From a virus: DNA of 30,209 bases. Shown here piece by piece: positions 1 to 14,588 of this stretch. The notes under the pieces were generated by a model. It was not told where the DNA came from. It ran no database searches and saw nothing but the letters and a program-made list of their open reading frames with translations. Each line of letters starts with the position of its first letter. The stretch's first letter is position 1. A program made the translations under genes and the position numbers. The stretch spans positions 1-30,209 of IMG/VR virus record IMGVR_UViG_3300007755_000011; one strand, given 5' to 3'.

Positions 1-1
1 A

Positions 2-1402
2 GTAGAGCTGGTGATGGCGCTGAGTGCGGTGCAGGGGCAACTCCAGGCGATAGCAAAGACGGGGAGTGCAGAGGTGCATGGTCGCTCTAAGAATGGGCGC
101 CCGGTCAAATTTGGGTACAGCTATGCGGAGTATCCGACGGTGCTGAAGGCGGCGCTGCCGTTGCTGGCCTCTCAGGGGCTGGCTCTCTTCCACCAGACCT
201 TGCCGCTGGCGAGTGGAGCGACGGTGCTGAGGTCCATGCTGGCTCACCGGAGTGGTGAGTTCGTGGCTTCGGAGATGGTGCTGCGGGTGGACCAGCCTGG
301 GAACCCTCAGAGGTGGGGGAGCTGGCTGACGTACTCGAAGAGGTACGCGACCTTGCAGCTCTTGGGGATGGCGGCGGGTGGGGATGATGACGCTTCTTCC
401 TATGTTCAGTCTCAGGGCTCTCAGGGCTCTCGGTCGCAGGGTGCGCCGCGCCAGTCTTCCCGGCCCCAGAGTCAGCAACAGCAGCAGCAGCAAGCTCAGC
501 GCCCTCAGAGGAGCGGGGGGGTGTACACCTCAGAGCAGCTGCGAGGGCAGCTCTGCGGCCTGTTCGAGGGTGTCAGCGCGGATGAGGTGGAGGAGCTGTA
601 TAGGCGGTCCAAGGGGGCGCTGTCCTCTGCGACTAGAGGGCAGCTGAGCCAGGAGATCAGCTACCTGCGAGAGCACCCTAGCGAGGTGAGGGCAGGGGTG
701 GAGGAGGTGCTCTCATGGAGGGCTTCCGCCCCGATCGCAGACGAACAGATGAGCAGGAGTGCGAGCCCCAAAAGCGCTCACGCCACCGGGGAACAGCCGA
801 GCAGGTGCGGAGCGCTAAAGGGCTCACGGTCCCCTGCTGAACATGCGACCCGGGGGGACGCGGATCTCCGCCCTATCCAGGCGGCGACTCCGCCTTCTAC
901 CCCAGAGGAGAGCCTCAGGGCCTTCCAGGAGCGCCACCGAGCTGAGCAGCCTCAGCCTGAGCTGCTGGGACCCACCACCCAGCCTCCCCAGCCTCCCCAG
1001 ATGACTGAGAAGCGGCGCTGGACGCTGGCTCAGAAGGCGCTAGTGAAGCTCTACCCAGAGCTGGACGTGGTGGGGGTCCGTGACCTCTACGATCTCCGAG
1101 GGATCGACCTGGGGGGCTCCTCGGCTGAGGATCTAGAGAGGGAGGTGATAGATCTAGAGAGCCGCGCCGATGCGCGGGAGGAGGTGCAGTCGCGCCTCGC
1201 TGAGTATGAGCGCATGAGGCTGATAGAGCGCCATGTGACCTCCTCAGACGGCTCCACCACCTACACAGTGCGGAGAAGGGGTGGGAGGTGGAGCTGCACC
1301 TGTAGAGCAGGACAGTGGAGAAGAGAGTGCAAGCATATCAAGCAGATCAAAGCCGAGACCGAGACGGCCACAGCAGGGGCTGAGCCCCAGAGGAGAGAGT
1401 GA
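2..1402 (+). CDS. erf: ERF-family ssDNA annealing protein with C-terminal SWIM zinc motif
   Basis: Single-strand annealing recombinase of the ERF superfamily, expected to coat ssDNA and anneal complementary strands during phage recombination or replication. Seen: the N-terminal part has the ERF pattern, a YAEYPTVLKAALPLLASQGL segment followed by WGSWLTYSKRYATLQLLGMAAGGDDDA near residues 100-127 (numbered from base 11), equivalent to the family's GSAxTYxRRYALxxLLGIxxDDDD signature. A Gln-rich, low-complexity linker follows. The C-terminus carries C429-x-C431-x8-C440-x-H442, a SWIM zinc-binding motif normally found in DNA- or protein-binding proteins. The frame is open to the window edge and ERF proteins usually begin a few residues earlier, so the true start is probably outside; first in-window starts are GTG at 11 and ATG at 14. 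The stop overlaps the next gene's ATG (TGATG). ERF is secure; the role of SWIM is inferred. Confidence 0.88.
   Translation, partial: VELVMALSAVQGQLQAIAKTGSAEVHGRSKNGRPVKFGYSYAEYPTVLKAALPLLASQGLALFHQTLPLASGATVLRSMLAHRSGEFVASEMVLRVDQPGNPQRWGSWLTYSKRYATLQLLGMAAGGDDDASSYVQSQGSQGSRSQGAPRQSSRPQSQQQQQQQAQRPQRSGGVYTSEQLRGQLCGLFEGVSADEVEELYRRSKGALSSATRGQLSQEISYLREHPSEVRAGVEEVLSWRASAPIADEQMSRSASPKSAHATGEQPSRCGALKGSRSPAEHATRGDADLRPIQAATPPSTPEESLRAFQERHRAEQPQPELLGPTTQPPQPPQMTEKRRWTLAQKALVKLYPELDVVGVRDLYDLRGIDLGGSSAEDLEREVIDLESRADAREEVQSRLAEYERMRLIERHVTSSDGSTTYTVRRRGGRWSCTCRAGQWRRECKHIKQIKAETETATAGAEPQRRE
743..886 (+). repeat. Imperfect 48-bp-period repeat in the ERF linker
   Basis: GAACA(G/T) recurs at 743, 791 and 839, exactly 48 bases (16 codons) apart. 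The first two copies also share GAGCAGG and an AAAG(N)GCTCACG block, with a small shift inside the unit; the third copy is strongly diverged. At protein level the units begin EQ-x-SR, EQ-x-SR and EH-x-x-R. It lies in the low-complexity linker between the ERF and SWIM parts, downstream of a CAG-rich Gln run (about 474-500). Probably linker growth by slippage. Confidence 0.35.
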
Positions 1403-1737
1403 TGAAGTGGGTGAGCGAAGAGCAGGAGATCGCCGCAGAAAATGCGGCGCGCGAGACTGATGGCCAGCGCCGGTTTCAGGCGCTGGTGTCCCGTAGGGAG
1501 GTACTGGAGAGACGCGCCGATAGGGCGCGCGAGATGATAGAGAGGTTGAAAAGGCAGCGATCCACCCTCCCTCCTCCAGGAGAGGGAGGCTTTTTGGCCT
1601 GGATAGACAGGCAGTGGGTGGAGGAGAGCCTCGCAGAGGAGAAGGCGAGGCTCTCCGATCTGTCGAAAAGGGCGCTCTCTGCGAGGGCGGAGGAGGAGGA
1701 GGCCCTGAGGCGCTGGAAGGCGCGTCGAGAGGGCTGA
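1402..1737 (+). CDS. Small coiled-coil protein of unknown function
   Basis: Unrecognised 111-residue protein. It is very rich in Arg and Glu and predicted by eye to be two long helices (about residues 10-50 and 70-110) separated by a PPPGEGGF turn, so a coiled-coil hairpin. The ATG at 1402 overlaps the ERF stop as TGATG and has AGGAGAG just upstream, which favours it over the GTG at 1399. This tight coupling to the annealing protein suggests an accessory role in recombination or replication, but no family was recognised and no catalytic motif is visible. Confidence 0.7.
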   Translation: MKWVSEEQEIAAENAARETDGQRRFQALVSRREVLERRADRAREMIERLKRQRSTLPPPGEGGFLAWIDRQWVEESLAEEKARLSDLSKRALSARAEEEEALRRWKARREG

Positions 1738-1747
1738 AACAGAAGGC

Positions 1748-1785
1748 GCCCAGGCCCCCACAGACTGATATCTAAGGGCCTGGGC
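1748..1785 (+). terminator. Perfect 10-bp inverted repeat, possible terminator or processing hairpin
   Basis: GCCCAGGCCC (1748-1757) and GGGCCTGGGC (1776-1785) are exact reverse complements with an 18-base loop. The hairpin begins 11 bases after the coiled-coil gene's stop. No T tract follows, so it is not a standard rho-independent terminator; it could protect or process the mRNA between the recombination genes and the next cluster. Confidence 0.45.
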
Positions 1786-1822
1786 AAGCGCTCCCCACAA
1801 GGGGGGCAAAGGTAGAGACAGG

Positions 1823-2041
1823 ATGATGAAAAAAACCCCGAGGGGCAAGTCCCCTCGTAGGGCTAGCGCCCTGAGTGTGTGGGCTGCTGAGTGGAGGGAA
1901 GAAATCGCTGTGTGGCTGATGCGGATAGCCGTCCTGCTGATAGTGATGCTGATAGCGGCGCTGCTGTGGGCGGAGTGGAGCGGGTCTAGCGGGTCTGTAG
2001 ACACGCAGCCCTGCCCAGAGATCCACAGGGGCAGACGATGA
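1823..2041 (+). CDS. Small single-pass membrane protein
   Basis: Unrecognised protein of 72 residues (71 if the ATG at 1826 is used). A Lys/Arg-rich N-terminus is followed by one strongly hydrophobic helix (about residues 29-50, centre AVLLIVMLIAALLW) and a short polar tail with one Cys. The positive-inside rule places the N-terminus in the cytoplasm. An AGACAGG ribosome-binding segment precedes the ATG pair. Its stop overlaps the next start (ATGA at 2038). Early position argues against a structural role; a superinfection-exclusion or host-modifying membrane protein is possible but unsupported. Confidence 0.6.
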   Translation: MMKKTPRGKSPRRASALSVWAAEWREEIAVWLMRIAVLLIVMLIAALLWAEWSGSSGSVDTQPCPEIHRGRR

Positions 2042-2199
2042 GCCTGCGGCCTGGGATAGAGGGGCTGCGCCTGCGCTCAAGGCGCGGCATGTGGGTAGCC
2101 ACCTGGACAGAGGGGGGCTCCCAGCGGGAGCAGAGTGGAGACACACCAGAGGAAGCCCTGCGAGGGCTGGTGATAGGAGGCGTTCATGAGCCCTCATGA
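2038..2199 (+). CDS. 53-residue protein of unknown function
   Basis: Short reading frame that overlaps the upstream gene by ATGA and ends inside the ParB-like gene (14-base overlap). The product has a GMWVATWTEGGSQREQSGDT core followed by PEEALRGLV. The pattern W-x-A-x-W ... G-x-TPEEALR-x-L is common in small phage proteins that form a compact beta-beta-alpha fold, but no function is assigned. Support is the coupled start, the tight packing and a protein-like C-terminal helix. It has no separate ribosome-binding site, so expression would depend on coupling. Confidence 0.55.
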   Translation: MSLRPGIEGLRLRSRRGMWVATWTEGGSQREQSGDTPEEALRGLVIGGVHEPS

Positions 2200-3472
2200 C
2201 TGGGTGATCATCGGGACGGTGGATGCGATCCCGATCGATGTGATCCGAAGGGATCCGTCAATACAGGCTCGGGTGGAGATAGGCGCAGCCCGCGTCACCA
2301 CCTACGCAGACGACCTCAGCCGAGGGGACCGGATGCCTCCGGTGGTGGTCTTCTGTGAGGAGGTCGAGGGAGAGTGGATAGCGTGGCTGGCTGACGGATG
2401 GCACCGCGTCGCAGCCGTAGAGGAGAGGGGAAAGAGCTGCATGATCCGCGCAGAGATGCGCAAGGGAGGGAGGCGAGAGGCGTTGATCTACGCGGCGGGC
2501 GCGAACGCCGCGCACGGTCTCCGGAGGAGCCTAGCGGACAAGCGCCGCGCCATCGACCTGCTGCTGGATGATCCGGTCTGCTCGCAGTGGAGCGCCAGGA
2601 GGATCGCCAAGGCCGCTCGGGTCTCAAACTCGACGATCTCTATGGCAAAAAAGAGGCGCAGAAACTGTGCGATCGCACACCCTGAAAGTGGATCCGGTGG
2701 GGAATTCCCCAAAAACGCGCAGCACGACTGTAATCGTCCGCCTATAGCGGCATCCGGGTGCGGAATTCCGCACCCATCCCCATCCTCAGAGCCCCAGCCT
2801 GCTACACTGCCTCCAGTCGAGGAGGGGATGATGAGCGCGCTGGATCCAGAGGAGCAGGAGGAGCAGGAAGGGGAGCCCCTGAGCCTGGGGGTGCTCCTGG
2901 GAGAGGGAGAGGGAGACGCGGGGGGGGAGACGGAGTGGCCTCTCAAGATCGAGGAGGGCCTGAGCCCCCACGAGATGCAGCTCCTCCGCAGGCTGGCCTA
3001 TACATATGGGGCCAGTAGCTGGGAGCGTGGGACTGGGGCGGACCACCCTCCGGTGGTGCCCAGCCTCCTGGAGCGCCTGCCCAACGAGATCCCATCGGCA
3101 GGGTGGGGCTTGATCCCCAGCTGGACCCACATGGGGGAGCTGCTGGAAAGGGGGCTGCTGATAGAGGCACGCCGAGAGGGGGTCGCAGTCCTCTGCCTGA
3201 GCGGAGCTGCATGGAGCGCCTACAGCGAGGCTCTCCACCCGAGAGTACGCTACCCAGAGATCAGGCCGGAGCTGCACTCCCTCGCAGCGCAGATTCAGCC
3301 TGGGCTGCGCTCGGTCTCCGTCCACGAGACAGGCCACGGAGTCAAGATCTCCTCCTGCCCTGTCGTAGAGGGGATCAGCGTAGACCTCCAGATCACCGCC
3401 TCTGACTGGGGAGGCGTGGTGGAGCGTCTACGAGAGGCTGTGGAGCTGATACGTAGGTGCTCTACAGCCTAG
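2186..3472 (+). CDS. ParB-like protein (ParB/Srx fold plus HTH) with long C-terminal extension
   Basis: ParB/RepB/Spo0J-family DNA-binding protein. Seen: residues 11-105 match the ParB N-terminal fold (MPPVVVF near 50-56, LADGWHR at 68-74), then an alpha-helical part (LRRSLADKRRAIDLLLDDP, 112-130) and a helix-turn-helix at about 136-156 (SARRIAKAARVSNSTISMAKK). Phage members usually act in replication, partition or transcription control; no ParA is visible nearby. Residues 157-214 form a Cys/Pro-rich linker whose DNA contains three perfect palindromes. The C-terminal 215 residues are unrecognised. GGAGG lies 5 bases before the ATG, and the start overlaps the 53-residue gene. An internal ATG pair at 2828/2831 with GAGGAGGGG could give a separate C-terminal product. 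Confidence 0.82.
   Translation: MSPHDWVIIGTVDAIPIDVIRRDPSIQARVEIGAARVTTYADDLSRGDRMPPVVVFCEEVEGEWIAWLADGWHRVAAVEERGKSCMIRAEMRKGGRREALIYAAGANAAHGLRRSLADKRRAIDLLLDDPVCSQWSARRIAKAARVSNSTISMAKKRRRNCAIAHPESGSGGEFPKNAQHDCNRPPIAASGCGIPHPSPSSEPQPATLPPVEEGMMSALDPEEQEEQEGEPLSLGVLLGEGEGDAGGETEWPLKIEEGLSPHEMQLLRRLAYTYGASSWERGTGADHPPVVPSLLERLPNEIPSAGWGLIPSWTHMGELLERGLLIEARREGVAVLCLSGAAWSAYSEALHPRVRYPEIRPELHSLAAQIQPGLRSVSVHETGHGVKISSCPVVEGISVDLQITASDWGGVVERLREAVELIRRCSTA
2666..2775. promoter_or_regulatory. Cluster of three perfect palindromes in the ParB-like gene
   Basis: Three exact palindromes lie within 110 bases: TGTGCGATCGCACA (2666-2679), GGGGAATTCCCC (2699-2710) and GGGTGCGGAATTCCGCACCC (2756-2775). 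The first and third share GTGCG/CGCAC arms; the second and third share the core GGAATTCC. Centres are 32 and 61 bases apart. They sit in the region coding for a flexible linker, where protein constraint is low. Known parallels are parS-type sites and the lambda origin inside gene O. A binding site for the encoded protein or an origin element is the inferred role. Confidence 0.45.
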
Positions 3473-3473
3473 T

Positions 3474-3510
3474 GCCCAGGTAGAGGGGAGCCCTACCCTC
3501 TCTGCCTGGG
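3474..3510 (+). terminator. Terminator-like hairpin after the ParB-like gene
   Basis: CCCAGG at 3475-3480 pairs with CCTGGG at 3505-3510. Pairing continues inward through TAGAGGGG (3481-3488) with CCCTCTCTG (to 3497), giving about 14 pairs including two G-T, around an 8-base loop. There is no clear T tract, so termination may be weak or factor-dependent. A second, smaller hairpin (TGTGGCC 3513-3519 with GGCCACA 3532-3538) follows at once. Confidence 0.5.
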
Positions 3511-3594
3511 TCTGTGGCCAATGGAAACAAGGGCCACAATGGAAAACTTTCCCCATAATCCCCCCAAAAAAAGCCAGAAAATCCCCAGTTTGGT

Positions 3595-3623
3595 TTGACA
3601 AGTAGGAAATAATTTCCTATTAT
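3595..3623 (+). promoter_or_regulatory. Near-consensus sigma-70-type promoter with palindromic operator
   Basis: TTGACA (3595-3600), a 17-base spacer, then TATTAT (3618-3623): a perfect -35 and a five-of-six -10. The spacer contains TAGGAAAT-A-ATTTCCTA (3603-3619), an exact 8-bp inverted repeat around one base, as expected of a repressor operator. Upstream, GGAAAACTTTCC (3541-3552) has the same GGAAA/TTTCC arms and may be a second site. The promoter points at the HNH/HTH gene pair; the start codon lies about 60 bases downstream of the -10. Confidence 0.72.
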
Positions 3624-3683
3624 GTAGATGCCGGTGGGGAGAGACCCCACAAGGCGACACCGCCCGAGAGGGAAGGGGACAAC

Positions 3684-4106
3684 ATGAGCAACACAAACGC
3701 AAACGCAGCCAAAACCGCTCCTAAGGCACGCAAGGGTGGGTCCAAGGCACGCAAGGGTGGGTCCAAGTGGATTCGACCGACCACCCGCCTCGCGCTCTAC
3801 CTGCGCGACGGATTCCGCTGCGCCTACTGCAACCGCGACCTCTCCCAGGCCCCGCGCTTCGAGACCACCCTCGACCACGTGAAGGCTCACCACAGCGGCG
3901 GCGATAACTCTCCCTCGAACCTAGTGTGTGCCTGCCGTAGCTGCAACTCCAGACGTCAAGACAAGCCAGTCAGCACCTACGTCAAGATCGCTGGCCTGAA
4001 CCCCAGCACGATCTGGAGCCGGATTTCCAGACGTCGCAGCCGCGACCTCACCCCCTACCGCGCCGAGGCCCGCCGCCTCATCGCTGAAAGGAAGGCCAAC
4101 CGATGA
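3684..4106 (+). CDS. HNH endonuclease
   Basis: HNH-family nuclease, 140 residues. Seen: zinc-binding pairs C46-x2-C49 and C84-x2-C87, the catalytic D64-H65 (TTLDHV), N79 and the final CRSCNSRR helix, all in canonical order. The N-terminus is a basic, disordered tail holding a duplicated KARKGGS. The enzyme should make metal-dependent nicks or breaks in DNA; phage HNH proteins act in packaging or as free-standing homing enzymes, and this one is neither next to the terminase nor inside an intron. AGGGAAGGGG precedes the ATG. It is the first gene after the promoter at 3595-3623 and its stop overlaps the HTH gene's start (ATGA), so the two are co-expressed. Confidence 0.88.
   Translation: MSNTNANAAKTAPKARKGGSKARKGGSKWIRPTTRLALYLRDGFRCAYCNRDLSQAPRFETTLDHVKAHHSGGDNSPSNLVCACRSCNSRRQDKPVSTYVKIAGLNPSTIWSRISRRRSRDLTPYRAEARRLIAERKANR
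3723..3764 (+). repeat. Exact 21-bp tandem duplication
   Basis: The 21-base unit AAGGCACGCAAGGGTGGGTCC occurs twice back to back (3723-3743 and 3744-3764) with no mismatch and keeps the reading frame, duplicating KARKGGS in the basic tail of the HNH protein. Exact identity suggests a recent slippage event. Confidence 0.85.
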
Positions 4107-4516
4107 AGATCAACCCCGAACACCTTTCCGGAGCAGACACCACAGGGGCGCGCGATAGCGCTTTTGTGGTGTCTGCTCATGACCCTAAGGCCCGGTGGGT
4201 CGGGCAGGTCCCCGTTACTAGGATCGGATGGACCCTCGAAGATCCAGAGGGCCTCCATGATGCCCTCATGGATGAGGCATCGCTCGGCAGTCTCATCGAG
4301 ACTGTCGGCGCGGTGAGCACCGAGACAGCGGTGGGCTATAAGGCCCCTCAGCCTTCGGAGATCAGAGCCCTCATCAAGAGGGCGCGCATCTCCCAGGCTG
4401 AGGCAGCGCGGAGGATAGGAGTGACCTCCAGGAGCATGAGGTACTGGGTGAGCGAGACAGCATCCAGGCCCATCCCTTTTGCGGAGTGGTACACGCTCCG
4501 CGCTATCCTCGGATAA
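4103..4516 (+). CDS. HTH DNA-binding protein
   Basis: 137-residue protein. The C-terminal half holds a helix-turn-helix (about residues 86-116: EIRALIKRARISQAEAARRIGVTSRSMRYW) followed by PIPFAEWYTLRAIL, the arrangement of small XRE/YdaS-like phage regulators. Residues 1-80 are unrecognised. The start overlaps the HNH stop (ATGA). A plausible role is control of the operon promoter at 3595-3623, whose spacer is palindromic; that link is inference. The first half of the coding DNA contains four consecutive inverted repeats, which may explain its unusual N-terminal sequence. Family assignment rests on the HTH only. Confidence 0.75.
   Translation: MKINPEHLSGADTTGARDSAFVVSAHDPKARWVGQVPVTRIGWTLEDPEGLHDALMDEASLGSLIETVGAVSTETAVGYKAPQPSEIRALIKRARISQAEAARRIGVTSRSMRYWVSETASRPIPFAEWYTLRAILG
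4131..4178. repeat. Long inverted repeat inside the HTH gene
   Basis: GAGCAGACACCACA (4131-4144) and TGTGGTGTCTGCTC (4165-4178) are exact reverse complements over 14 bp. In + strand RNA, pairing continues inward through three G-U and four Watson-Crick pairs to a GCGATA loop (4152-4157), for a 21-pair hairpin. It starts 28 bases after the gene's start codon. Further hairpins follow at 4259-4281, 4284-4308 and 4311-4322. Confidence 0.8.
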
Positions 4517-4539
4517 AAAAAGGCTCCCTCTCAGGAGCC
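4515..4539 (-). terminator. Rho-independent terminator reading the minus strand
   Basis: On the minus strand the order is GGCTCC, a six-base loop, GGAGCC, then seven T residues: a standard intrinsic terminator of modest stem length. On the + strand the A tract precedes the hairpin and no T tract follows, so it does not serve the HTH gene. All recognised genes here are on the + strand, so the orientation implies either a minus-strand transcript from the right or chance. Confidence 0.55.
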
Positions 4540-4640
4540 CACTCCACCTTGGAAAGGCTGGAGCAATGACCGGCTGGCTTCTTCGGGTCTGTCAATCCCC
4601 GCTCGTGCGGGGGAAATTTGCCGGCAAGCCAGCCTACCAC
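4515..4640 (-). ncRNA. Candidate minus-strand small RNA with CRISPR-repeat-like hairpin
   Basis: Read on the minus strand: CCCCGC-ACGA-GCGGGG (4612-4597) followed by ATTGACAG, then about 50 bases, then the terminator at 4539-4515. The hairpin and the next bases resemble a type I-E CRISPR repeat (hairpin CCCCGC-N4-GCGGGG then ATGAACCG or ATAAACCG; 5 of 8 match the first). An outer 9-bp stem also surrounds the hairpin: GGCTGGCTT 4572-4580 with AAGCCAGCC 4626-4634. Only a weak promoter is seen to the right (TTTTCA-N17-TAGGCT on the minus strand). It may instead be a structured + strand leader of the next gene. Transcription is inferred. Confidence 0.3.
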
Positions 4641-4661
4641 AGAAAGCACAGGGTGAAAAAA

Positions 4662-5624
4662 GTGAGTGATCGACTTTCCCCACAGCTGGCTGTCTCCCAT
4701 ATCGGGCGGCGGTATCCGGGCGTGTGGAAAAAGCACGAGCAGGTGCGGAGCCAGCACCACCATGACTGGCCCCGATGGTGCTACTGCCCGCTGACGGAGA
4801 CCGCCGAAATCCTCGCCTCATACGGGGCCTTCAGGGCAGGGGATATTGGAGTGGTCGGAGCGCTGGCCGCGTGGAAGGCCACGCAGGGGATCTATCGCTT
4901 TGACCCTGATCTCCAGAGAGCCCTGATGGACACCCCTGTTAAAGGGGATCTTCCGGTGGAGGTACTAGAGCACCTCCCTGGGTGGTGTGTATACGTCGAG
5001 ATGGACCCGTCTGGGTCCATACAGGGCTTCTGGGCACACCTGGAGTGGGATGAGGTGCAAGACCGGCGCGAACTGCGCTTGGTTTTGCACCCGACAGGTG
5101 AAGGCCGCGCCCTAGTGGCTGTGCCTATACACCTAGGCGTAGGCGGCCTAGAGGAGGCACTCAGGTCCATGGCGCAGGAGACTCCTCGGCCTGGGACTCC
5201 TGTGGGCTGGCTAGCAGACCTCCTCGAACCCCTCATCTCGCTTCTACTGTACCTATGCTCCGCTGCGGCGGAGATACGGGACAGCCGGACAGGGTGGGAG
5301 CGAGGGGCTCACTCTCCAGACAAGCCAAAAAGGAGGAAAAAGAGGAGGAGGTCCAGCGCTGGGCGCCCCTCACCCACTACGTGGGACGTGGGGTGGAGGT
5401 TCGGGGCAGCCCTGAGGGCCTCCCGAAAGGCTGCTGAGGGGTCAGGGGGCTCGGCGGGCGCAGGCTCTAGCCCTAGACCCCATATCAGGAGAGCCCACTG
5501 GCACACCTACCGGGTGGGGAAGGGGCGCCGGAAAAGAGTCCTGAGGTGGGTCCATCCCATCATGGTGGGGACGGGTGAGAGGGTGGCTACGGTGCATCGG
5601 GTAGCTCTGGAGCCACCCGTATAG
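4662..5624 (+). CDS. AcrVA2-like protein (anti-CRISPR family)
   Basis: 320-residue protein of the AcrVA2-like family. The founding member, AcrVA2 of Moraxella, lowers Cas12a by acting on the nascent protein and its mRNA; most homologues are untested. Seen, in family order: WPRWCYCPL (36-44), GIYRFDPDL (76-84), LPGWCVYVE (105-113), GFWAHLEWD (122-130), a hydrophobic helix LLEPLISLLLYLC (about 200-212), a basic linker near 225, and PHIRRAHWHTY (273-283) with the trailing LRWVHP. Length matches the family. The GTG at 4662 is chosen because AGGG lies 8 bases upstream and the family homology starts just after it. The ATG at 4566 gives 32 extra residues encoded by a structured, possibly non-coding segment. 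Family confident; function in this phage inferred. Confidence 0.78.
   Translation: MSDRLSPQLAVSHIGRRYPGVWKKHEQVRSQHHHDWPRWCYCPLTETAEILASYGAFRAGDIGVVGALAAWKATQGIYRFDPDLQRALMDTPVKGDLPVEVLEHLPGWCVYVEMDPSGSIQGFWAHLEWDEVQDRRELRLVLHPTGEGRALVAVPIHLGVGGLEEALRSMAQETPRPGTPVGWLADLLEPLISLLLYLCSAAAEIRDSRTGWERGAHSPDKPKRRKKRRRSSAGRPSPTTWDVGWRFGAALRASRKAAEGSGGSAGAGSSPRPHIRRAHWHTYRVGKGRRKRVLRWVHPIMVGTGERVATVHRVALEPPV
5581..5618 (+). terminator. Inverted repeat at the end of the AcrVA2-like gene
   Basis: GGGTGGCT (5581-5588) and AGCCACCC (5611-5618) are exact 8-bp reverse complements ending just before the stop codon. An alternative inner hairpin pairs GCTAC (5586-5590) with GTAGC (5601-5605). No T tract follows. 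It could slow termination or shape the mRNA end; evidence for a true terminator is weak. Confidence 0.3.
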
Positions 5625-5644
5625 ATCTAGAGCCCACCCTGCCC

Positions 5645-5650
5645 TACAAT
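5645..5650 (+). promoter_or_regulatory. Possible -10 box before the 50-residue HTH gene
   Basis: TACAAT matches five of six -10 bases and lies 27 bases before the ATG at 5677. The hexamer 17 bases upstream (TAGATC) is a poor -35. A small GGCG/CGCC hairpin follows at 5651-5663. A weak or activator-dependent promoter for this gene and perhaps the lysis cluster is possible. Confidence 0.3.
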
Positions 5651-5676
5651 GGCGAAAACCGCCATGCGGGGGAAAA

Positions 5677-5829
5677 ATGTGGGTGAGAAGAGCGGTAGAT
5701 GAACCGGGAGCCCTGGGAGGACGCGCCCAGGTGGCTCGCCTCATCGGGGTGGGCGTGAGGACGGTGGGCGACTGGCTTTTCAGCGGAGTCACACCACCGG
5801 CCTCAGCTCTCGCTATGATCTACGTCTGA
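5677..5829 (+). CDS. 50-residue helix-turn-helix protein
   Basis: Small gene with GGGGGA upstream of the ATG. The product is almost entirely one HTH: AQVARLIGVGVRTVGDWLFSG at about residues 17-37, followed by a PPASALAMIY helix. This layout matches small Cro/YdaS-like phage proteins that bind one operator as dimers. It sits between the AcrVA2-like gene and the lysis cluster; known AcrVA-type loci often carry a small HTH (Aca) regulator downstream, so it could act as an Aca-like repressor. That role is inferred from position only. No Aca family was recognised. Confidence 0.65.
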   Translation: MWVRRAVDEPGALGGRAQVARLIGVGVRTVGDWLFSGVTPPASALAMIYV

Positions 5830-5868
5830 ATCCCCCATCATCGAGCCTCCCCTTCGCTACACTGGGGG

Positions 5869-6141
5869 ATGGCTCAAGACACACCTCCCACCACTCCCAC
5901 CATCAAGCGCTCGCCCATCCGAAACCGGGAGGGGATCGTCGATAGTGATCTCCTCCTGAAATGGGGGGGGGCTGGGCTCGCTCTGCTCCTCCTGACGGCG
6001 CGCGGCCTTGGCCCGCTATTCGGTCTGACTCCAGACCGGCTTCCTGGCCTAGAGACGATAGGGGTATCTATTGCGTTGGGCGCTGGACACAGCGCGGCAT
6101 ACCTCGTAAAGCGAAAGCAAATCCCCAGGAGCACGCTATGA
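5869..6141 (+). CDS. Small two-helix membrane protein, holin candidate
   Basis: 90-residue protein. A polar, Thr/Pro-rich N-terminus is followed by two probable membrane helices (about 33-52 and 61-80) and a basic C-terminus (KRKQIPR). Size, two helices and position at the head of a run of small membrane or secreted proteins fit a class II-like holin, which would form the lethal membrane lesions that start lysis. No holin family was recognised. There is little ribosome-binding site; GGGGG abuts the ATG, with TACACT just before. A run of nine G (5963-5971) lies in the first helix, where slippage would inactivate the gene. The stop overlaps the next start (ATGA). Confidence 0.6.
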   Translation: MAQDTPPTTPTIKRSPIRNREGIVDSDLLLKWGGAGLALLLLTARGLGPLFGLTPDRLPGLETIGVSIALGAGHSAAYLVKRKQIPRSTL

Positions 6142-6488
6142 GGAAGATCTGGAAGATCATCCTCACCCTCGTCAGTGCTATCGCCGGAGTCGCGGCCGCG
6201 CTGATCTGGAAGCGCAGGGCCTCAGCCGAGGCGATCAAGGCTCATCGAGAGGCTGGTGAGGCTGCTGAAGAGGCAGAAATCCACGCCGATGGCCTCATCG
6301 ATGAGGCCGAAAAGCTGGGGATCGAGGCCGAAGGGGTCGCTGATGAGGACCGCCGCCGCGATGAAGAGATCTTCGATGAGGCCCTAGACGAGGCAAAAGA
6401 GATCACAGCCCCCAGAGGATCTGCTCCCAGGCCGAGGAGCGAAGCGCTGGAAGAGCTACGGAGGGAGCGAGAGAGGAGGGGGGGATGA
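6138..6488 (+). CDS. Membrane-anchored coiled-coil protein
   Basis: 116-residue protein. One N-terminal membrane helix (about 3-24, KIILTLVSAIAGVAAALIW) is followed by a long, highly charged, Glu/Asp/Ala-rich helix without Pro until residue 94. This topology resembles inner-membrane spanins, but also many unrelated small phage proteins; the basic residues after the helix (KRR) favour a cytoplasmic coil, which would argue against a spanin. Coupled to its neighbours on both sides by ATGA. Its coding DNA contains the exact 18-bp palindrome at 6291-6308. Confidence 0.6.
   Translation: MRKIWKIILTLVSAIAGVAAALIWKRRASAEAIKAHREAGEAAEEAEIHADGLIDEAEKLGIEAEGVADEDRRRDEEIFDEALDEAKEITAPRGSAPRPRSEALEELRRERERRGG
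6291..6308. repeat. 18-bp perfect palindrome
   Basis: GGCCTCATCGATGAGGCC is exactly self-complementary. A half copy, CGATGAGGCC, recurs about 80 bases downstream (near 6374). It encodes GLIDEA in a repetitive acidic helix, so part of the symmetry may follow from repeated Asp-Glu-Ala codons. Confidence 0.6.
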
Positions 6489-6985
6489 GGATATACCTCT
6501 GTCTGATCCTCATAGCAGGGACCGCCAGCGCTGAGCCCTGTCCCAGAGGGCTACTGGATCCCACCCATGACACACTCACTCTACCCAGGGGATGCAGGGC
6601 TCCCTTCACCGGGCAGCTCTACACCCTGAGCGCCCATGATGGGATCGCTCAAGATCTCGCGGCGCTGGACCAGCTCATCAGAGACCAGCGCATACAGCTC
6701 ACCGAGGCTAGAGGGGCTCGCGACGCCTGCTCCTCTCAGAGGGCAGAGGATATGAGGGGATGTGCAGCTCAGCTGATGAAGCTCAGCGCGGCGATCAAGA
6801 AGATCCCTCCACCAGTCGCAGACCAGCCCCTGTCTCCTGTATCCTGGGCAGCGATAGGCGCCCTGAGCGGCGCCGTACCCCTGGCGATAGGTGAGGCCGC
6901 TGGGGCCTCCGGTTTCGCCTCTGGAGGAGCTGCGCTGATAAGCGCCTCGCTAGCCCTTGGGCTCGCTTGGTGGATGGGAGACTGA
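6485..6985 (+). CDS. Secreted protein with C-terminal membrane segments
   Basis: 166-residue protein. Residues 1-16 form a signal peptide (YLCLILIAGTASA, probable cleavage after ASA), with Cys 19 nearby but no lipobox. The mature part has three more Cys, a helical coiled-coil section (about 48-105), a Pro-rich break (PPPVADQPLSP) and a Gly/Ala-rich hydrophobic C-terminus (about 119-163) that can span the membrane once or twice. So the central domain is likely periplasmic and membrane-tethered. Position suggests a lysis or envelope role; no family was recognised. Coupled to the preceding gene by ATGA. Confidence 0.6.
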   Translation: MRIYLCLILIAGTASAEPCPRGLLDPTHDTLTLPRGCRAPFTGQLYTLSAHDGIAQDLAALDQLIRDQRIQLTEARGARDACSSQRAEDMRGCAAQLMKLSAAIKKIPPPVADQPLSPVSWAAIGALSGAVPLAIGEAAGASGFASGGAALISASLALGLAWWMGD

Positions 6986-6987
6986 AA

Positions 6988-7248
6988 ATGATAGCGCTCA
7001 AAAGCTGGGGGGGATTTCACTCCCTGGTTCTGCTGCTTTTGCTAGTGGCTGGCGGTGGAGCCTGGATTGAGAGCTTTCGCAGTGATGTGGAAGCGCAAGG
7101 GGCTCGCGATGACGAACGACACCGAGAACAGCAGCGGCAGATCCAGGCGATAACAGCGGCGAATTTGGAGACATCCAAATCCCTGTATGAAATTCGCGAA
7201 ACGGTGGCAAACCTACAAGGGGCTCTTAACAGGGGAAAAAGCCCGTGA
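6988..7248 (+). CDS. Type II membrane coiled-coil protein, possible inner-membrane spanin
   Basis: 86-residue protein: one N-terminal membrane helix (about 11-28, SLVLLLLLVAGGGAW) followed by a continuous charged helix. Only one Lys-rich segment precedes the membrane helix and acidic residues follow it, so the coil should be outside the cytoplasm. That is the topology of an Rz-like inner-membrane spanin. GGGAG lies 7 bases before the ATG at 6988; an upstream in-frame ATG at 6973 would overlap the previous gene. Its stop overlaps the next GTG, and the next product is secreted, as in spanin pairs. No sequence family recognised. Confidence 0.6.
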   Translation: MIALKSWGGFHSLVLLLLLVAGGGAWIESFRSDVEAQGARDDERHREQQRQIQAITAANLETSKSLYEIRETVANLQGALNRGKSP

Positions 7249-7478
7249 GCCGCGCGTTGATCCTTGCCGCCCTCCTGTTTTCCTCGGCCACAGCTCAGCA
7301 TCCTGATGATCTAGACGGAGGACCACCGAAGCCCTGCCCAGATCAGCAAGACGCGGCAGTCGATTCAGCCAGAGAAGTAGCCGCTGAAGCTGAGCGTCTC
7401 GCCCAGGAGGTGGAGGCGCTTCGCGTTGAGATAAAGCGTCTCCAAGAGCTGGCGCAGAGAAGCATCCAAAAACCCTAA
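7245..7478 (+). CDS. Small secreted coiled-coil protein
   Basis: 77-residue protein starting at GTG, which overlaps the preceding stop (GTGA). The first 18 residues are a signal peptide (ALILAALLFSSATAQ). The mature part is short and Pro-containing, then a heptad-like helix (about 38-72). It would be a natural partner for the upstream type II membrane protein, like an outer-membrane spanin, but it lacks the lipobox Cys needed for a lipoprotein anchor. It may be an unusual spanin partner or a periplasmic protein of other function. Confidence 0.58.
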   Translation: MSRALILAALLFSSATAQHPDDLDGGPPKPCPDQQDAAVDSAREVAAEAERLAQEVEALRVEIKRLQELAQRSIQKP

Positions 7479-7591
7479 AACGGCAACTAGAAACCAGCGG
7501 AACGGGCGAGAAGCCTGTATCTTCATGGGTTTGCCTGGCTTTTCGGGGAGCGAATGTCGCCGGATCTCGGATGGTTCAGCTCGTTCTCTGT

Positions 7592-7620
7592 TTGAGGAAC
7601 AGGGGCTCAGAGGGTAATAT
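7592..7620 (+). promoter_or_regulatory. Candidate late-operon promoter
   Basis: TTGAGG (7592-7597), a 17-base spacer and TAATAT (7615-7620), four of six matches each. It lies in the 174-base gap between the lysis cluster and the packaging genes, 33 bases before the small terminase start. The rest of the gap shows no gene, tRNA or strong terminator. Confidence 0.45.
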
Positions 7621-7652
7621 CAAAAAAACGCATTGAGTTTAAGGAGTTCCGC

Positions 7653-8384
7653 GTGCTGCAAAAGGTGAAACCGGACCTCCATTACTGGACCTTGGCTGCA
7701 TTTAGGCTGCTTTTCTGGGAAAGGACCACACTGAGCCAGGCTGCTGCGATACTGAAGACCGAGTGGGATGAGATGTCGCCCAAGGAGAAGGAGCGATATG
7801 GGCTCCCTCCTAAAAGGGGAGTGATCCATCGCCGTAGCAGGGACCCGCAGCGGGTTGCTATCTGGAAACAGTGGCTGGAGGAGCGGAGGAAGGAAAAAGA
7901 GGAGAAGCAAAAAGGTGAAGCTTTTGAGCTGCTCGCCTCAGGGCGCGGGACTGTTGCTGATGTAGCGCGCCACCTGGGGATAAACCACCAGAGCGTCAGG
8001 AAGTGGCTGGCGTCTCCTGTGATGCTGGCTCAGCTTGAGTCAGCTCGAAACATCTCGACGATGGCGACATCTTTGCGGGTCAGTGAGTCTATTCCTGATG
8101 TGATCGGCTCCCTGATGGGTATAATTAATCGACCGACTGCGAGCGATCCCAAGATGGCACTAAGGCAGGATGACATCAAAATTAAGGCGGCGCGCGCGAT
8201 GTCTGAGCTTTTGAGGGCCTCGGCACCCCAGGCCAGCGCGCCTCAGGTCCAGGTGAATACGCAGGTCAATACAGGTGAAGCGGAAACAGCCAAAAAAGAG
8301 AGTCACATCTCAGGACTCCTAGAGCAGATAGCCGAGGCGCAGAAGGATGGAACCACTACGCAAGACTTGAATCTAGTAAGATGA
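7653..8384 (+). CDS. terS: Terminase small subunit-like HTH protein
   Basis: 243-residue protein directly before and overlapping (ATGA) the large terminase gene, the normal place of the small subunit that recognises phage DNA for packaging. Seen: an HTH at about residues 96-116 (GRGTVADVARHLGINHQSVRKWL), a possible second N-terminal HTH-like segment (LSQAAAILKTEWDEM, about 27-41), a helical middle and a disordered Ala/Gln/Thr C-terminus with a terminal helix. GTG start with AAGGAG six bases upstream. No specific TerS family was recognised; position and HTH carry the call. Confidence 0.75.
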   Translation: MLQKVKPDLHYWTLAAFRLLFWERTTLSQAAAILKTEWDEMSPKEKERYGLPPKRGVIHRRSRDPQRVAIWKQWLEERRKEKEEKQKGEAFELLASGRGTVADVARHLGINHQSVRKWLASPVMLAQLESARNISTMATSLRVSESIPDVIGSLMGIINRPTASDPKMALRQDDIKIKAARAMSELLRASAPQASAPQVQVNTQVNTGEAETAKKESHISGLLEQIAEAQKDGTTTQDLNLVR

Positions 8385-9757
8385 CGGTCACCCTTAACCC
8401 TTTCCAACTCCAGCTCTGCGAAGCTGTGCTTAGCGGCGCTCCGGTCATAGGGATCAGAGCAGGGTGGGGCTCGGGAAAAACTTTCGGGATCATCCAGGCG
8501 ATCATTTTGACCGCTGCTCGCTATCTGGCGCAGGTGGGGAGGCCTGTCAGGATCCTCCTGGTCACAGACACAGATGGAAGATACAGGAGAAACCTGCACC
8601 CAGAGGCTGAAAAGTTCCTGCCACCACTTGGCTGGAAATACAAGGGAGGGGCAGGGCAACACTGGAAAGGCCCGAGTGGTGAAAAGGTCTGGATTCGAGC
8701 TTATTTCAGGCAAAGCACCCGGTCGATAGACCAAAACAGTCTGGAGGGACTGGATGTTGATGTCGCCTTCGTAGACGAGGCGCAGACCATGGATGAGGAG
8801 ATGTATACCAGAGTATGGGGGAGGATACGCTCTGGGAAACCTCCTCAGGTCCTGATCTCTGGCGTACCGACCTGGTTTGACTGGTGGATTCGTAAGGCCA
8901 GGGAAACAGAAGGGGGTAGGGTTATTTTTGCTACCAGCTATGTAAACCACACCATCTCCCAGACGTGGTTCAACGCCATGAAGGCCTCTGGAGAATACGA
9001 AGAGAAGGTTCTTAATCTCCCGAAGGCGCCTAAGGGTTCTGTTTACGCTGAGTGGGTCCCGACCCAGTGGCCTGATGGGAACCTCGCTCCGACAGGGTGG
9101 ACCTATAATCCTGAGTGGGTCGGAAGGTTGACGATGGATTTTGGCTATCGCCACCCATCAGGGCTACTCATCGTCGAGGACCCCGATCTTGGTGTCGATG
9201 TAGTCGTCAGGGAGTGGAATCCCGAGCGGGTCCTCACCAAAAAATTCGGCAGCGCCATCCTTGAGGAGGCAGCTCCCAGACGGTTCAGGCAACGAGGTCT
9301 GCTTCAGATTGATGCAGCCTGCGGAGATGTGGCAGGGGGTCAGACCCAGAGCGCCACTGGCACGTCAGACATAGCTGAGATGGAAAGACTCTTGGGTATC
9401 CCCATCGTGGTGCCTCCTGGAGATCGAAGACGGATCCCTGAGGGAGTCAAGCAGACAAGGGCGCGCATCCAAAACTCATCAGGAAAACGTCGCCTCCTTT
9501 GCACTCGAGAAGTTTGGGAGTCCGGCCTGAGGGTCAAAGGAGTGTCTTTTGCTAAAGCTCTCGCCAGCTACAAATATCCATCGCGAGGAGATCGAGAGGA
9601 GCCGGTCAAGGATGGTATGGAGCATCCTCTCGATGCACTGCGTTACTATGTAGCTGTCTGGCGATGGTGGACGAAGCCACTGATAGGCTCAACGCCCGGA
9701 TGGGGCGCCCAAGGATCTCGACCCGCATGGTACGGCCTGGCTACCGGAGATAGATAA
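8381..9757 (+). CDS. terL: Terminase large subunit
   Basis: 458-residue ATPase-nuclease that drives DNA into the procapsid and cuts it. Seen: Walker A GWGSGKT (residues 28-34), Walker B VAFVDEAQ (128-135), a probable motif III region LISGVPT shortly after, and the RNase H-like nuclease with D253 in MDFGYRHPS and D411/D418 in the C-terminal DGMEHPLDALRYY. All catalytic acids appear intact and the length is usual for the family. The stop falls inside a 9-bp hairpin (9756-9776). Confidence 0.93.
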   Translation: MTVTLNPFQLQLCEAVLSGAPVIGIRAGWGSGKTFGIIQAIILTAARYLAQVGRPVRILLVTDTDGRYRRNLHPEAEKFLPPLGWKYKGGAGQHWKGPSGEKVWIRAYFRQSTRSIDQNSLEGLDVDVAFVDEAQTMDEEMYTRVWGRIRSGKPPQVLISGVPTWFDWWIRKARETEGGRVIFATSYVNHTISQTWFNAMKASGEYEEKVLNLPKAPKGSVYAEWVPTQWPDGNLAPTGWTYNPEWVGRLTMDFGYRHPSGLLIVEDPDLGVDVVVREWNPERVLTKKFGSAILEEAAPRRFRQRGLLQIDAACGDVAGGQTQSATGTSDIAEMERLLGIPIVVPPGDRRRIPEGVKQTRARIQNSSGKRRLLCTREVWESGLRVKGVSFAKALASYKYPSRGDREEPVKDGMEHPLDALRYYVAVWRWWTKPLIGSTPGWGAQGSRPAWYGLATGDR

Positions 9758-9794
9758 GTCTACTCGCAGTAGACTTGAGAGCCAACCTCCGGTA
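9742..9794 (+). repeat. Nested stem-loops between terminase and portal genes
   Basis: Inner stem: AAGTCTACT (9756-9764), loop CGC, AGTAGACTT (9768-9776), nine exact pairs. Outer stem: TACCGGA (9742-9748) with TCCGGTA (9788-9794), seven exact pairs. The structure covers the terL stop and ends 11 bases before the portal start, which has no good Shine-Dalgarno sequence. No T tract follows, so control of portal translation or mRNA processing is likelier than termination. Confidence 0.65.
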
Positions 9795-9805
9795 ACAATA
9801 AACCC

Positions 9806-11254
9806 ATGCTGGGACCCACTTACGGCGGAATCCACAAGGCCTCGTCTGAGAAGGCGAGGAAATGGGCTGAGGAGCTGCGAGAGCCTCCAAAGTTGGAAGG
9901 TATCACCGGACTGCTGCCGATGGTCGGTCCTCTAGCTGCTGTTCAAGAGGGGTACGAGCATCAGCAGAAGCTGCGCTCGAACGTCCGAAGATTCCGCGCA
10001 TATAGAAAAATGGGGAGGGACACCCCAGCGATTTTCACAGCAGCGCGCCACGTCAGCAATCAGTTGCTCACAGCCATTCCAAAAATAAGGGAGACAGACC
10101 GCACAAGCGAGGCAGCGGTTGAGCTTATCGAGCGTGCTCTCGGCGTAGGCGAAGAGAAGGGTGCTGGGCGCTGTGAGCAGTCCCTGGAGACGATTCTGGG
10201 GGAATTTTTTAAGGCGCATTTGTACGGCTTCGGCCTGTGGTCCATGGAGGCTGAGTTCGAAGATGGAAAATATTGGATTCGCAAGCTCCACTATCGTCAG
10301 CCAGATACAATCGTCGGCTGGGTGGTCGATGAGCGCCAGGAGTGGGTGGCTGCAATCCAGAGGGTGGGGCTCAAGGCCGCAATACTCCCCCGGAACGAGA
10401 CCGTAAAGTTGGTACAGTACCCAACGGAGGGTGGGCTTACTGGAGTAGGGCTCTTTCGCCCGATCTATGGACACTGGCTTGATATTCAAGACAGCTACAA
10501 ACAGGCCGCAGTCGCAAGACAGCGCTATGCGACAGGCACACCTCACGCTCACCTAGACGAGGAGGTGGCTAAAAAATTTGGGCTGTCTACCAAAGACCAT
10601 CTGGAAGCGGAGAGGAATGAGATGAGGACCCTTTTGTCCCGGTACGAGGGGCATGAAGAGAGTCATCTAATCACTTTCCCTTGGTGGAAGCTTGATGTAT
10701 ATGGAGGAAAGCAGACCTACGACCCTGAGCCACTCCAGAAAAGTGCTGCTTACCATGAGCGGATTATTGCTGAGCAGTTTTTCGCAGCACATCTGATGCT
10801 TGGAAGGCAGGGATCGGGCGGGACATACAACCTATCCGAGACACAGGCTGGCATATCCGAGCGGTCGATCATCAACCTTGCTGACTGGATCTTTGAAGCG
10901 CTCAACAGGCAGGTAGTCCAGCGGATCTTGCGCTGGAATTTTGGTGATGCGCTTAAGCCTGAGGAAATGCCAGTGATTGGCTATGAAGGGCTAAAAGCAG
11001 AGGGGTGGGTAGCTCATCTGGAGAAGATCCTGAGCGGATATAGCACAGGGGTGCTCACCTATCAGACTGAGGATGAGGTGGCATTCCGCGCTGGCATGGA
11101 TATGCCAGCCATGAACAAAGAGACTTTGGAGAGAAGTAAAACGAAGGCCAGAGCAGGGATATCTAAAAACACTCCCGATGGCTCAGCGCAGGCTCGACGT
11201 AGGCAGCGGACCCCAGCCGCGTCATTGGTCAAAAGAACCCCAGGAGAAGTTTAA
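9806..11254 (+). CDS. Portal protein (DUF935/Mu gp29-like)
   Basis: 482-residue portal protein, forming the dodecameric ring through which DNA enters and leaves the head and on which the neck assembles. Seen: early helical segments (KMGRDTPAIFTAARHVSNQLL, then FFKAHLYGFGLWSMEAEF near 140-160), the wing-like KLHYRQPDTIVGWVVDE, the LVQYPTEGGLTGVGLFRPIYGHW stem region, and a C-terminal clip/crown part with QGSGGTYNLSETQAG. This order matches DUF935 portals. The C-terminus is basic and disordered. Weak ribosome-binding site; see the stem-loops just upstream. ATG of the next gene overlaps its stop region. Confidence 0.88.
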   Translation: MLGPTYGGIHKASSEKARKWAEELREPPKLEGITGLLPMVGPLAAVQEGYEHQQKLRSNVRRFRAYRKMGRDTPAIFTAARHVSNQLLTAIPKIRETDRTSEAAVELIERALGVGEEKGAGRCEQSLETILGEFFKAHLYGFGLWSMEAEFEDGKYWIRKLHYRQPDTIVGWVVDERQEWVAAIQRVGLKAAILPRNETVKLVQYPTEGGLTGVGLFRPIYGHWLDIQDSYKQAAVARQRYATGTPHAHLDEEVAKKFGLSTKDHLEAERNEMRTLLSRYEGHEESHLITFPWWKLDVYGGKQTYDPEPLQKSAAYHERIIAEQFFAAHLMLGRQGSGGTYNLSETQAGISERSIINLADWIFEALNRQVVQRILRWNFGDALKPEEMPVIGYEGLKAEGWVAHLEKILSGYSTGVLTYQTEDEVAFRAGMDMPAMNKETLERSKTKARAGISKNTPDGSAQARRRQRTPAASLVKRTPGEV

Positions 11255-12594
11255 TGAAACCCAAATCGATCGTGCTCCTAGGTGGAGAGGTAGTGTCGGG
11301 GCAGCCGCTGCATATCCTAAGAGAGGGTTCAGTTTACGATATGGCCTCTGGAGAACTCATCTGCAAGATCACCGAAGAACTCATGGATGAGGTGGTCAAG
11401 GGACACACAGCACTGAGCCGCTCCCAGGAGGTCCCCATCGACTTTGAGCACGGGCTTCGGCGCGGGAAAACTCCCGAAGAGCGCCAAACCTACGGCCTCA
11501 TCGTTTCAATGGATCGATCTGATGAGGGAGTGTTCGGGACTCCGCTCTATAATGAGCTGGGTGTCAATCTTGTCGATAAAAACGACGGGGGCGCTCTCAA
11601 GACATCACCCGTGCTTCACTTCGGTCCGCTCTTTGACCCCAAGACAGGTGAAGAACTGAGTAAGGCCTGGGTGGAAATGGTCTCGTTGACCACACTGCCT
11701 AGGCAATCCGATCTCCAGCCTGTGGCTCTTGGCCGCATGAACGACGGAGGAATCCTCGGGACGCAGTTGGCTATAGACCCTGGAGAGTCTGTCAATGAGG
11801 CAAGGAAGCGCCTCTTTGATGGCGCGAAGGACAAACTGCGAGACTCGCCTTATGGCGAGGGGGGCTATCATTTCTGGCTTGAGGACTGGAGCCTTGAGCA
11901 CGTCATCATAGAAGTTTTTTCGCATATCAAAGAGAGCGCCTTCCTAATACGTATGAGCGTCGAAGAAGATTCGGAGGGGCGCCTAAACTTTGGCGCTCCA
12001 GAGCGAGTCCGGCGCAAGCTTACATACGAAACAGAACCCGAACCGATAAAGCCTCATATCAAGGGGCTGGGGAGAGACACAGTGGGAGACATAACCCTGC
12101 CTCGCGCCGAGCATGAGGCAATGGTAGCGGAGCTAGCTCGGCTCCGCTCTGAGAAGCAGGAGGCAGCACAAGTAGCCACCGAGCAAGAGGGAACTCTGGC
12201 TGAACTGGGGCGAACAATCGCCGGGCAAAAAGAAAAACTAGCGCGCCTTGAGGCTGCGGAACTGGCGCGCGCCGAGGCAGATAGGAGGGCGAAGGTGGAG
12301 ACTCTCCTCTCCAGAGCCCTCAGAGAAGGCAAGATCACCGCAGCATCCACAGAGGGCTGGCGCAAAGATCTCCTTGGTTCTCCCGAAGTGGCTGCCGCTA
12401 CTGAGCGCTCTCTGGGTCGCCTCCAGGCTGGGGCTGTTGCTCCGACTGAGCTTAGAGGATTTAACGGTCCCGGCGAGCCGACTACAGAGGGGAAAATCAG
12501 CGCCGATGATATCCTATCTCTAGCCAGAGAAGAGGGGCTAACGTACCACGAGGCTGAGACGAGGCTAAAGGCTTTAAGAGGGGGTGCCAAATGA
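11254..12594 (+). CDS. Capsid maturation protease/scaffold (Mu gpI-like)
   Basis: 446-residue prohead protease of the Mu I-like group. Seen: VPIDFEHG (about 61-68) and a second block ALKTSPVLHFGPLFDPKTGEEL through EMVSLTTLPRQ (about 113-150), as in that family. The last ~180 residues are a long charged coiled coil (EHEAMVAELARLRSEKQEAAQ onward), probably the scaffold cleaved during maturation. Between them (about 172-265) is an inserted domain with SVNEARKRLFDGAKDKL, FWLEDWSLEHVII and a beta section ending NFGAPERVRRKLTYE; similar modules occur in some phage structural proteins. Located between portal and decoration/capsid genes, the standard place. Confidence 0.82.
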   Translation: MKPKSIVLLGGEVVSGQPLHILREGSVYDMASGELICKITEELMDEVVKGHTALSRSQEVPIDFEHGLRRGKTPEERQTYGLIVSMDRSDEGVFGTPLYNELGVNLVDKNDGGALKTSPVLHFGPLFDPKTGEELSKAWVEMVSLTTLPRQSDLQPVALGRMNDGGILGTQLAIDPGESVNEARKRLFDGAKDKLRDSPYGEGGYHFWLEDWSLEHVIIEVFSHIKESAFLIRMSVEEDSEGRLNFGAPERVRRKLTYETEPEPIKPHIKGLGRDTVGDITLPRAEHEAMVAELARLRSEKQEAAQVATEQEGTLAELGRTIAGQKEKLARLEAAELARAEADRRAKVETLLSRALREGKITAASTEGWRKDLLGSPEVAAATERSLGRLQAGAVAPTELRGFNGPGEPTTEGKISADDILSLAREEGLTYHEAETRLKALRGGAK

Positions 12595-12983
12595 GTGGAG
12601 ACAGCGGGCGCTCGATTCGAGCACCACTAGGTGCTGCGCTGAATAAATATGTTGCGGTGCAACACAACGCGACAGGGGAGGCAGTCGTGTGTGCCAATGG
12701 CACCGACAACTTTTTGGGACTCCTCACGGACGGTGGGGCTGTTGGAGACGGAGTATCCGTTCAAACCGGCGGAGACCTCGTAGATGCCCTTGCGGGGGCG
12801 GCGCTCACCAGAGGGACGCACAGCCTCCTGATGTGTGGGGCCAATGGATGGCTGTACCCATGTACGCCCACCAACAAGCCCGTGGCTATGTGGGTCCCAG
12901 AAAGCGCCTCTGTGCCTGCCCCAGCCGGAGGACTTCCCGCTGAGATCCGCGTCAAAATTCTGGGCAACGGACCGGCGCTTTAA
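12591..12983 (+). CDS. Probable head decoration/capsid stabilisation protein
   Basis: 130-residue, beta-rich, Gly-rich protein directly before the major capsid gene. The pattern (LNKYVAVQHNATGEAVVCANGTDNFLGLLTDGG, then VSVQTGGDLVDALAGAALTRGTHSL) is that of small head decoration proteins of the DUF2190/lambda gpD-like type, which sit on capsid threefold or related positions and strengthen the shell. ATGA overlap with the protease. Call rests on position, size and pattern. Confidence 0.68.
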   Translation: MSGDSGRSIRAPLGAALNKYVAVQHNATGEAVVCANGTDNFLGLLTDGGAVGDGVSVQTGGDLVDALAGAALTRGTHSLLMCGANGWLYPCTPTNKPVAMWVPESASVPAPAGGLPAEIRVKILGNGPAL

Positions 12984-12992
12984 AAGGAAATT

Positions 12993-14081: not shown

Positions 14082-14089
14082 GGATAAGT

Positions 14090-14587: not shown

Positions 14588-14588
14588 G

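Follow-up and report, generated by a model that had tools for sequence, protein, structure and literature searches.

A DNA stretch of 30,209 nucleotides from a virus (IMG/VR record IMGVR_UViG_3300007755_000011; hereafter, the window) carries, on the minus strand directly before an AcrVA2-like gene, a hairpin resembling a CRISPR repeat. This raises the question of whether the phage encodes a small RNA that mimics a CRISPR repeat or whether the resemblance arose in some other way. We judge it reasonably probable that the unit is a solitary type I-E repeat mimic on a minus-strand small RNA, making it a candidate RNA anti-CRISPR (Racr). This interpretation was put forward by the first-pass annotation, and it is supported at the sequence level by the match to type I-E arrays, the AcrVA2 homology of the neighboring gene, and repeat-like units in other viruses; the activity of the RNA would be presumed. 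The features of the locus are listed in Table 1. The mimic and the terminator occupy a gap of 136 bp between the stop codon of the helix-turn-helix (HTH) gene at 4516 and the AcrVA2-like gene.

Table 1 Features in and around the gap upstream of the AcrVA2-like gene (positions in the window).
Feature	Position	Strand	Remarks
Strong promoter-like TTGACA-17-TATTAT	3595..3623	plus	For the HNH, HTH, and AcrVA2-like genes
HNH endonuclease gene	3684..4106	plus	First in operon
Small protein with C-terminal helix-turn-helix	4103..4516	plus	Possibly a regulator; putative Aca-like role
Intrinsic terminator, 8-pair stem then T7	4540-4515	minus	Adjoins the stop codon of the HTH gene
Second predicted hairpin in the interval between mimic and terminator	4564-4541	minus	Predicted by folding
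Outer 9-bp stem, 3' arm AAGCCAGCC	4580-4572	minus	
Handle-like ATTGACAG	4596-4589	minus	Directly 3' of the stem GCGGGG
6-bp stem, 4-nt loop	4597..4612	minus	CCCCGC 4612-4607, ACGA 4606-4603, GCGGGG 4602-4597
Putative CRISPR-repeat mimic, stand-alone	4617-4590	minus	Reads ATTTCCCCCGCACGAGCGGGGATTGACA; identity of 24/28 to a Myxococcota type I-E repeat
Outer 9-bp stem, 5' arm GGCTGGCTT	4634-4626	minus	
Weak promoter candidate TTTTCA-17-TAGGCT	4631..4659	minus	TG before the second hexamer; predicted start near 4624
AcrVA2-like gene	4653..5624	plus	Homologues favor GTG 4653 or GTG 4662 over ATG 4566

To compare the unit with real repeats, we scanned the pattern CCCCGC-N4-GCGGGG-ATTGAC-N-G in 84,980 bacterial and archaeal genomes and obtained 13 loci, five of which were real arrays (period, 61–62 bp; repeat, 28 nt). 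The repeat of the Myxococcota array (L003) is GTTTCCCCCGCACACGCGGGGATTGACC and that of an Acidobacteria array is GCTTCCCCCGCACCCGCGGGGATTGACC, with variants in L009, L012, and L013. Of the 28 positions of the phage unit, 24 agreed with the Myxococcota repeat and 23 each with the Acidobacteria and Tistrella repeats. The Myxococcota array and two Acidobacteria arrays had a period of 61 bp, and their contigs gave matches to the Cas6e and Cas5e models over the cut-off. Therefore, these three arrays are type I-E. L012, a Bacillota genome with an array of this kind, has both cas6e and cas5e on another contig. The type I-E repeats ending in ATTGACC (Myxococcota, L003; Acidobacteria, L009 and L011; Bacillota, L012 and L013) share with the phage unit the 6-bp stem CCCCGC/GCGGGG, a 4-nt loop, TTTC or similar before the stem, and ATTGAC after it. 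The stem, the preceding TTTC, and the trailing ATTGAC were identical to those of the Myxococcota repeat, and the only differences were two loop bases and two end bases. In contrast to the ATTGACC repeats, the phage unit stands alone, has the two loop bases changed, begins with A, and ends with A rather than C.

The type I-E likeness noticed at first was thus borne out and proved better than had been thought. The earlier count of five matches among the eight handle bases was right, but the reference used for it, ATGAACCG, was wrong; real repeats ending in ATTGACC give 6/7, and in real arrays ATTGACC at this position is followed by a variable first spacer base. The sequence and positions had likewise been read correctly, except that the unit is 4617-4590, one base off from 4591-4618. 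A refuting condition raised earlier, that the unit resembles no host repeat at all, is countered as far as bacterial repeats generally are concerned. The unit retains what Cas6e requires, namely a stem-loop and a G-A junction at the stem base, and, as is known for type I-E systems, Cas6e is predicted to cut after position 4597. The closest repeat found is 86% identical to it, a figure obtained in a single genome scan with a fixed stem and handle pattern that may miss closer repeats, and in this it differs from Racrs, with at least 90%, which is also the identity to a known repeat set as the cut-off in the published SRU search (SRUFinder).

We compared the gap with a panel of 46 array repeats, each occurring at least two times in the fetched loci. 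The gap reached 24 matches, against a maximum of 22, attained once, in 500 dinucleotide shuffles of it; elsewhere in the window the best score was 19/28. As the panel does not cover all repeats and the finding was selected in hindsight, a chance match is unlikely without being impossible. In a chance resemblance, an ordinary GC-rich hairpin and an ordinary terminator would simply share a phage gap; such hairpins are frequent in viral records, where CCCCGC...GCGGGG stems recur with other flanks, and thousands of known repeats are available to match. However, the match is as good over ten bases flanking the stem (TTTC and ATTGAC) as over the stem itself, and in 775 Myxococcota and Acidobacteriota genomes no sequence other than the Myxococcota array matched with three or fewer mismatches in 27. 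We consider chance very unlikely. The unit is also solitary, being the only one within nine mismatches in the window, and no cas-like match was obtained among the scanned window proteins. These observations bear on whether it is left over from a CRISPR array, or from an integrated spacer unit, and has no function today. Whole I-E arrays do occur in some viral records (e.g., L002, with eight repeats), but here there is neither a second repeat nor, among the window proteins scanned, a cas gene, and the unit ends in a same-strand terminator instead of a spacer and a repeat, which leaves such an origin extremely unlikely. Both chance and an array remnant are the less likely explanations of the unit.

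Searches with Rfam gave weak chance matches only in the region (CRISPR-DR28, 16 bits on the wrong strand with a cut-off of 35), and in 60 related loci they gave tRNAs and ribozymes and no CRISPR families at the gathering level. Exact and peptide searches of viral contigs with the element, the AcrVA2-like protein alone, or the terminase gave no relative, and thus no related phage or locus with which to examine covariation. For clues to the host, a portal search gave identities of about 25% or less among the matches listed. A 21-nt exact copy of the core of the unit, TTCCCCCGCACGAGCGGGGAT, was present on a Sphingomonas plasmid (L018, 2999-3026), and no array was found around it.

The open frame of the AcrVA2-like gene begins at TTG 4479, and a start at ATG 4566 would enclose the unit. 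Nine plasmid or phage homologues and most of 80 viral loci, which were found with an alignment of these nine AcrVA2 homologues, start at or align from approximately window residue 31–39 of this frame. Therefore, the gene likely starts at GTG 4653 or GTG 4662 and the unit is intergenic, the element nearly filling the gap. We rejected a coding explanation of the unit by an open reading frame from ATG 4566, which would be ca. 30 residues longer than the homologues; ATG 4566 is thus an improbable, if conceivable, start. The same gene start makes it unlikely that conservation here would follow plus-strand codon positions, a point raised earlier against an RNA. The identification of the neighboring protein as AcrVA2-like held (phmmer E, 1.1e-16; family profile E, 3.8e-71, vs PDB 7ci1; PHROG 6160 E, 1.3e-41), and by these matches the gene is a true AcrVA2 homologue. 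The phage protein is homologous to AcrVA2 (PDB 7ci1 and 7ci2) over nearly its whole length, with about 22–24% pairwise identity to the Moraxella forms. To our knowledge, Cas12a is the only effector that AcrVA2 has been described to inhibit. It lowers Cas12a via translation-dependent mRNA loss (review, PMC13131331).

The minus-strand order noted earlier, a hairpin followed by ca. 50 bases and a T7 terminator, was seen: 48 bases separate the handle-like ATTGACAG from the terminator hairpin (4540-4521), which runs into seven T and ends at 4515. Positions 1-15000 contain 18 terminator-like sites (10.4 in shuffles), and this minus-directed terminator ranks with the strongest of them. The minus-strand 126 nt folded at −59.8 kcal/mol compared with −45.7 ± 3.7 for shuffles (z = −3.85, 0/200 shuffles), and the plus strand folded nearly equally (z = −3.77). 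Therefore, folding does not give the strand, and the T run alone gives the direction. A strict promoter scan of the minus strand of the region found none. The sole minus-strand candidate scored 9.0 (background median, 8.5; 90th percentile, 9.5), no better than chance, and we agree with the first-pass annotation that only a weak promoter is visible. With a start near 4624, the RNA would lack the 5' arm of the outer stem, and the segment 5' of the mimic would offer a Cas7 filament little room.

In contrast to this candidate at background level, the plus-strand promoter-like site in the same region is near-perfect. In a cis-antisense control of the AcrVA2-like gene, a minus-strand RNA would tune its leader, or the plus-strand hairpins would form a leader attenuator, the CRISPR likeness being incidental or a sensor of host Cas6e. 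The plus strand has the strong promoter and folds equally well, and a minus-strand RNA would be wholly antisense to the leader (4517-4652). However, an RNA with the predicted start near 4624 would not cover the ribosome site (4645-4661), and an incidental likeness of 24/28 was never reached in shuffles. We regard such control as possible but unlikely.

The extra outer stem of nine pairs (4572-4580 with 4626-4634), which had been held against a CRISPR repeat, is real, and no other repeat-like unit in other viruses had one. It also bears on whether the RNA is a crRNA-like regulator of the CreR/CreA type, in which the unit and the next 33 nt would direct the Cascade of the host to a promoter, either of the phage or of the host, with no titration of Cas proteins. 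CreA and CreR RNAs resemble the phage unit in that a single ectopic repeat is followed by a spacer or spacer-like stretch (PMC12737573, PMC9458426). The CreA and CreR RNAs on record come from the CRISPR host itself. No partial complementarity to a promoter was found for the phage unit in its own genome. The 33 nt after ATTGACA matched the window at best at 21/33, the level of shuffled spacers (19–21), and the one full-seed match among the best listed (11635) lies inside a head-region gene and not in a promoter. Furthermore, pairing in the outer stem occupies the 33-nt stretch. A guide of this type was rejected as having no support in the phage genome, and the explanation as a whole appears quite improbable.

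Returning to the interpretation as a candidate Racr, the gap would contain a minus-strand small RNA gene of ca. 110–125 nt, the product of which would consist of the solitary I-E repeat mimic, a spacer-like stretch with the second hairpin, and the intrinsic terminator. Racrs are repeat mimics: Cas6 binds and cleaves them, and both Cas6 and Cas7 become trapped in nonfunctional complexes (PMC10651486). By analogy with them, the hairpin would be a binding site for host Cas6e, which would cleave after GCGGGG; Cas6e, and perhaps Cas7, would then be sequestered by the product in dead-end complexes, so that real crRNAs would be starved of Cas proteins. The analysis shows the sequence, the predicted structure, the terminator, the likeness to I-E repeats beside cas5e and cas6e, and the AcrVA2 homology; transcription, Cas6e binding, and inhibition are what we infer for this RNA. 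The AcrVA2-like protein on the opposite strand might act as a second, independent counter-defense.

Type I-E Racrs and the acr-racr neighborhood are experimentally established (Camara-Wilpert et al. 2023, PMC10651486), including I-E inhibition by the type I-E members; RacrIE1 and RacrIE2 are the closest to the phage unit. In common with these Racrs and solitary repeat units, the phage unit is a single mimic in a phage intergenic region, without cas genes and beside an acr gene. Unlike RacrIC1, which is co-transcribed downstream of an acr gene, it is antisense to the acr gene, and it differs from Racrs in having an extra outer stem and no clear promoter. The antisense placement and the outer stem are unusual in this type I-E candidate, which comes from a phage without a close relative and extends the short list of RNA anti-CRISPRs.

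Repeat-like units were also present in other viruses carrying AcrVA2 homologues. In L072 (5600-5770), a promoter-like TTGACG-17-TAATAT is followed by TTGCTCCCCGCAAACGCGGGGATAAACC and a terminator, a textbook layout, in a gap 1.7 kb downstream of the homologue. In L064 (2190-2217), an I-E-like unit, ACGTTCCCCGCGCAAGCGGGGGTCAACC, immediately precedes the start codon of a gene that overlaps the homologue; this unit could also be a Cas6-responsive leader. L110 (1440-1310, minus strand) has three tandem hairpins 48 bp apart, two of them followed by ATGAACCGT, and their stems are changed yet paired (CTCCTC/GAGGAG and CTCCCC/GGGGAG); it looks like a multi-unit I-E repeat mimic. L087 (2414-2180, minus strand) has four degenerate I-C-like units with the ends GTGGATTGAAA or GCGGATCGAAAC, 48–63 bp apart, two with intact and differing stems. 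This mini-array ends in a minus-strand terminator and is located upstream of the gene preceding the AcrVA2 homologue. A weak I-F likeness in L086 (21/28 matches, poor handle) was not relied on.

Among 50 whole records with AcrVA2 homologues, only two exact I-E-like matches were found, both less than 2 kb from the homologue. A search from the repeat side gave ca. 35 solitary I-E-like units in 119 viral loci; in one case, the L072 virus, an AcrVA2 homologue was present as well. These results are suggestive of an association between AcrVA2 homologues and repeat units and are not proof of enrichment. It is possible, if rather doubtful, that AcrVA2-like genes and repeat-mimic RNAs constitute a recurrent two-part counter-defense module against type I systems, in which the RNA would titrate Cas6 and Cas7 (I-E, I-C, or I-F) and the protein would act on the synthesis of type I effectors instead of Cas12a. 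The presence of AcrVA2 relatives beside type I repeat mimics, here and in other viruses, suggests that the family may act beyond Cas12a, and AcrVA2 homologues are possible markers for finding further RNA anti-CRISPRs.

Other elements were observed in these records. A canonical I-E repeat, GTGTTCCCCACGCCCGTGGGGATGAACCG, lies apparently alone between two genes in L250 (249-277), ca. 10 kb from an AcrVA2 homologue. Type-P5 twister and twister-sister ribozymes were present in viral records carrying AcrVA2 homologues (L085, 318-374, and L099, 1929-2015). In the window itself, the start of the HNH endonuclease gene contains an exact 21-bp tandem duplication (3723-3764), and the 5' end of the HTH gene contains an inverted repeat (4131-4178; 21-nt arms, 86% complementary, with a 6-nt loop), which is possibly an operator or a leader hairpin.
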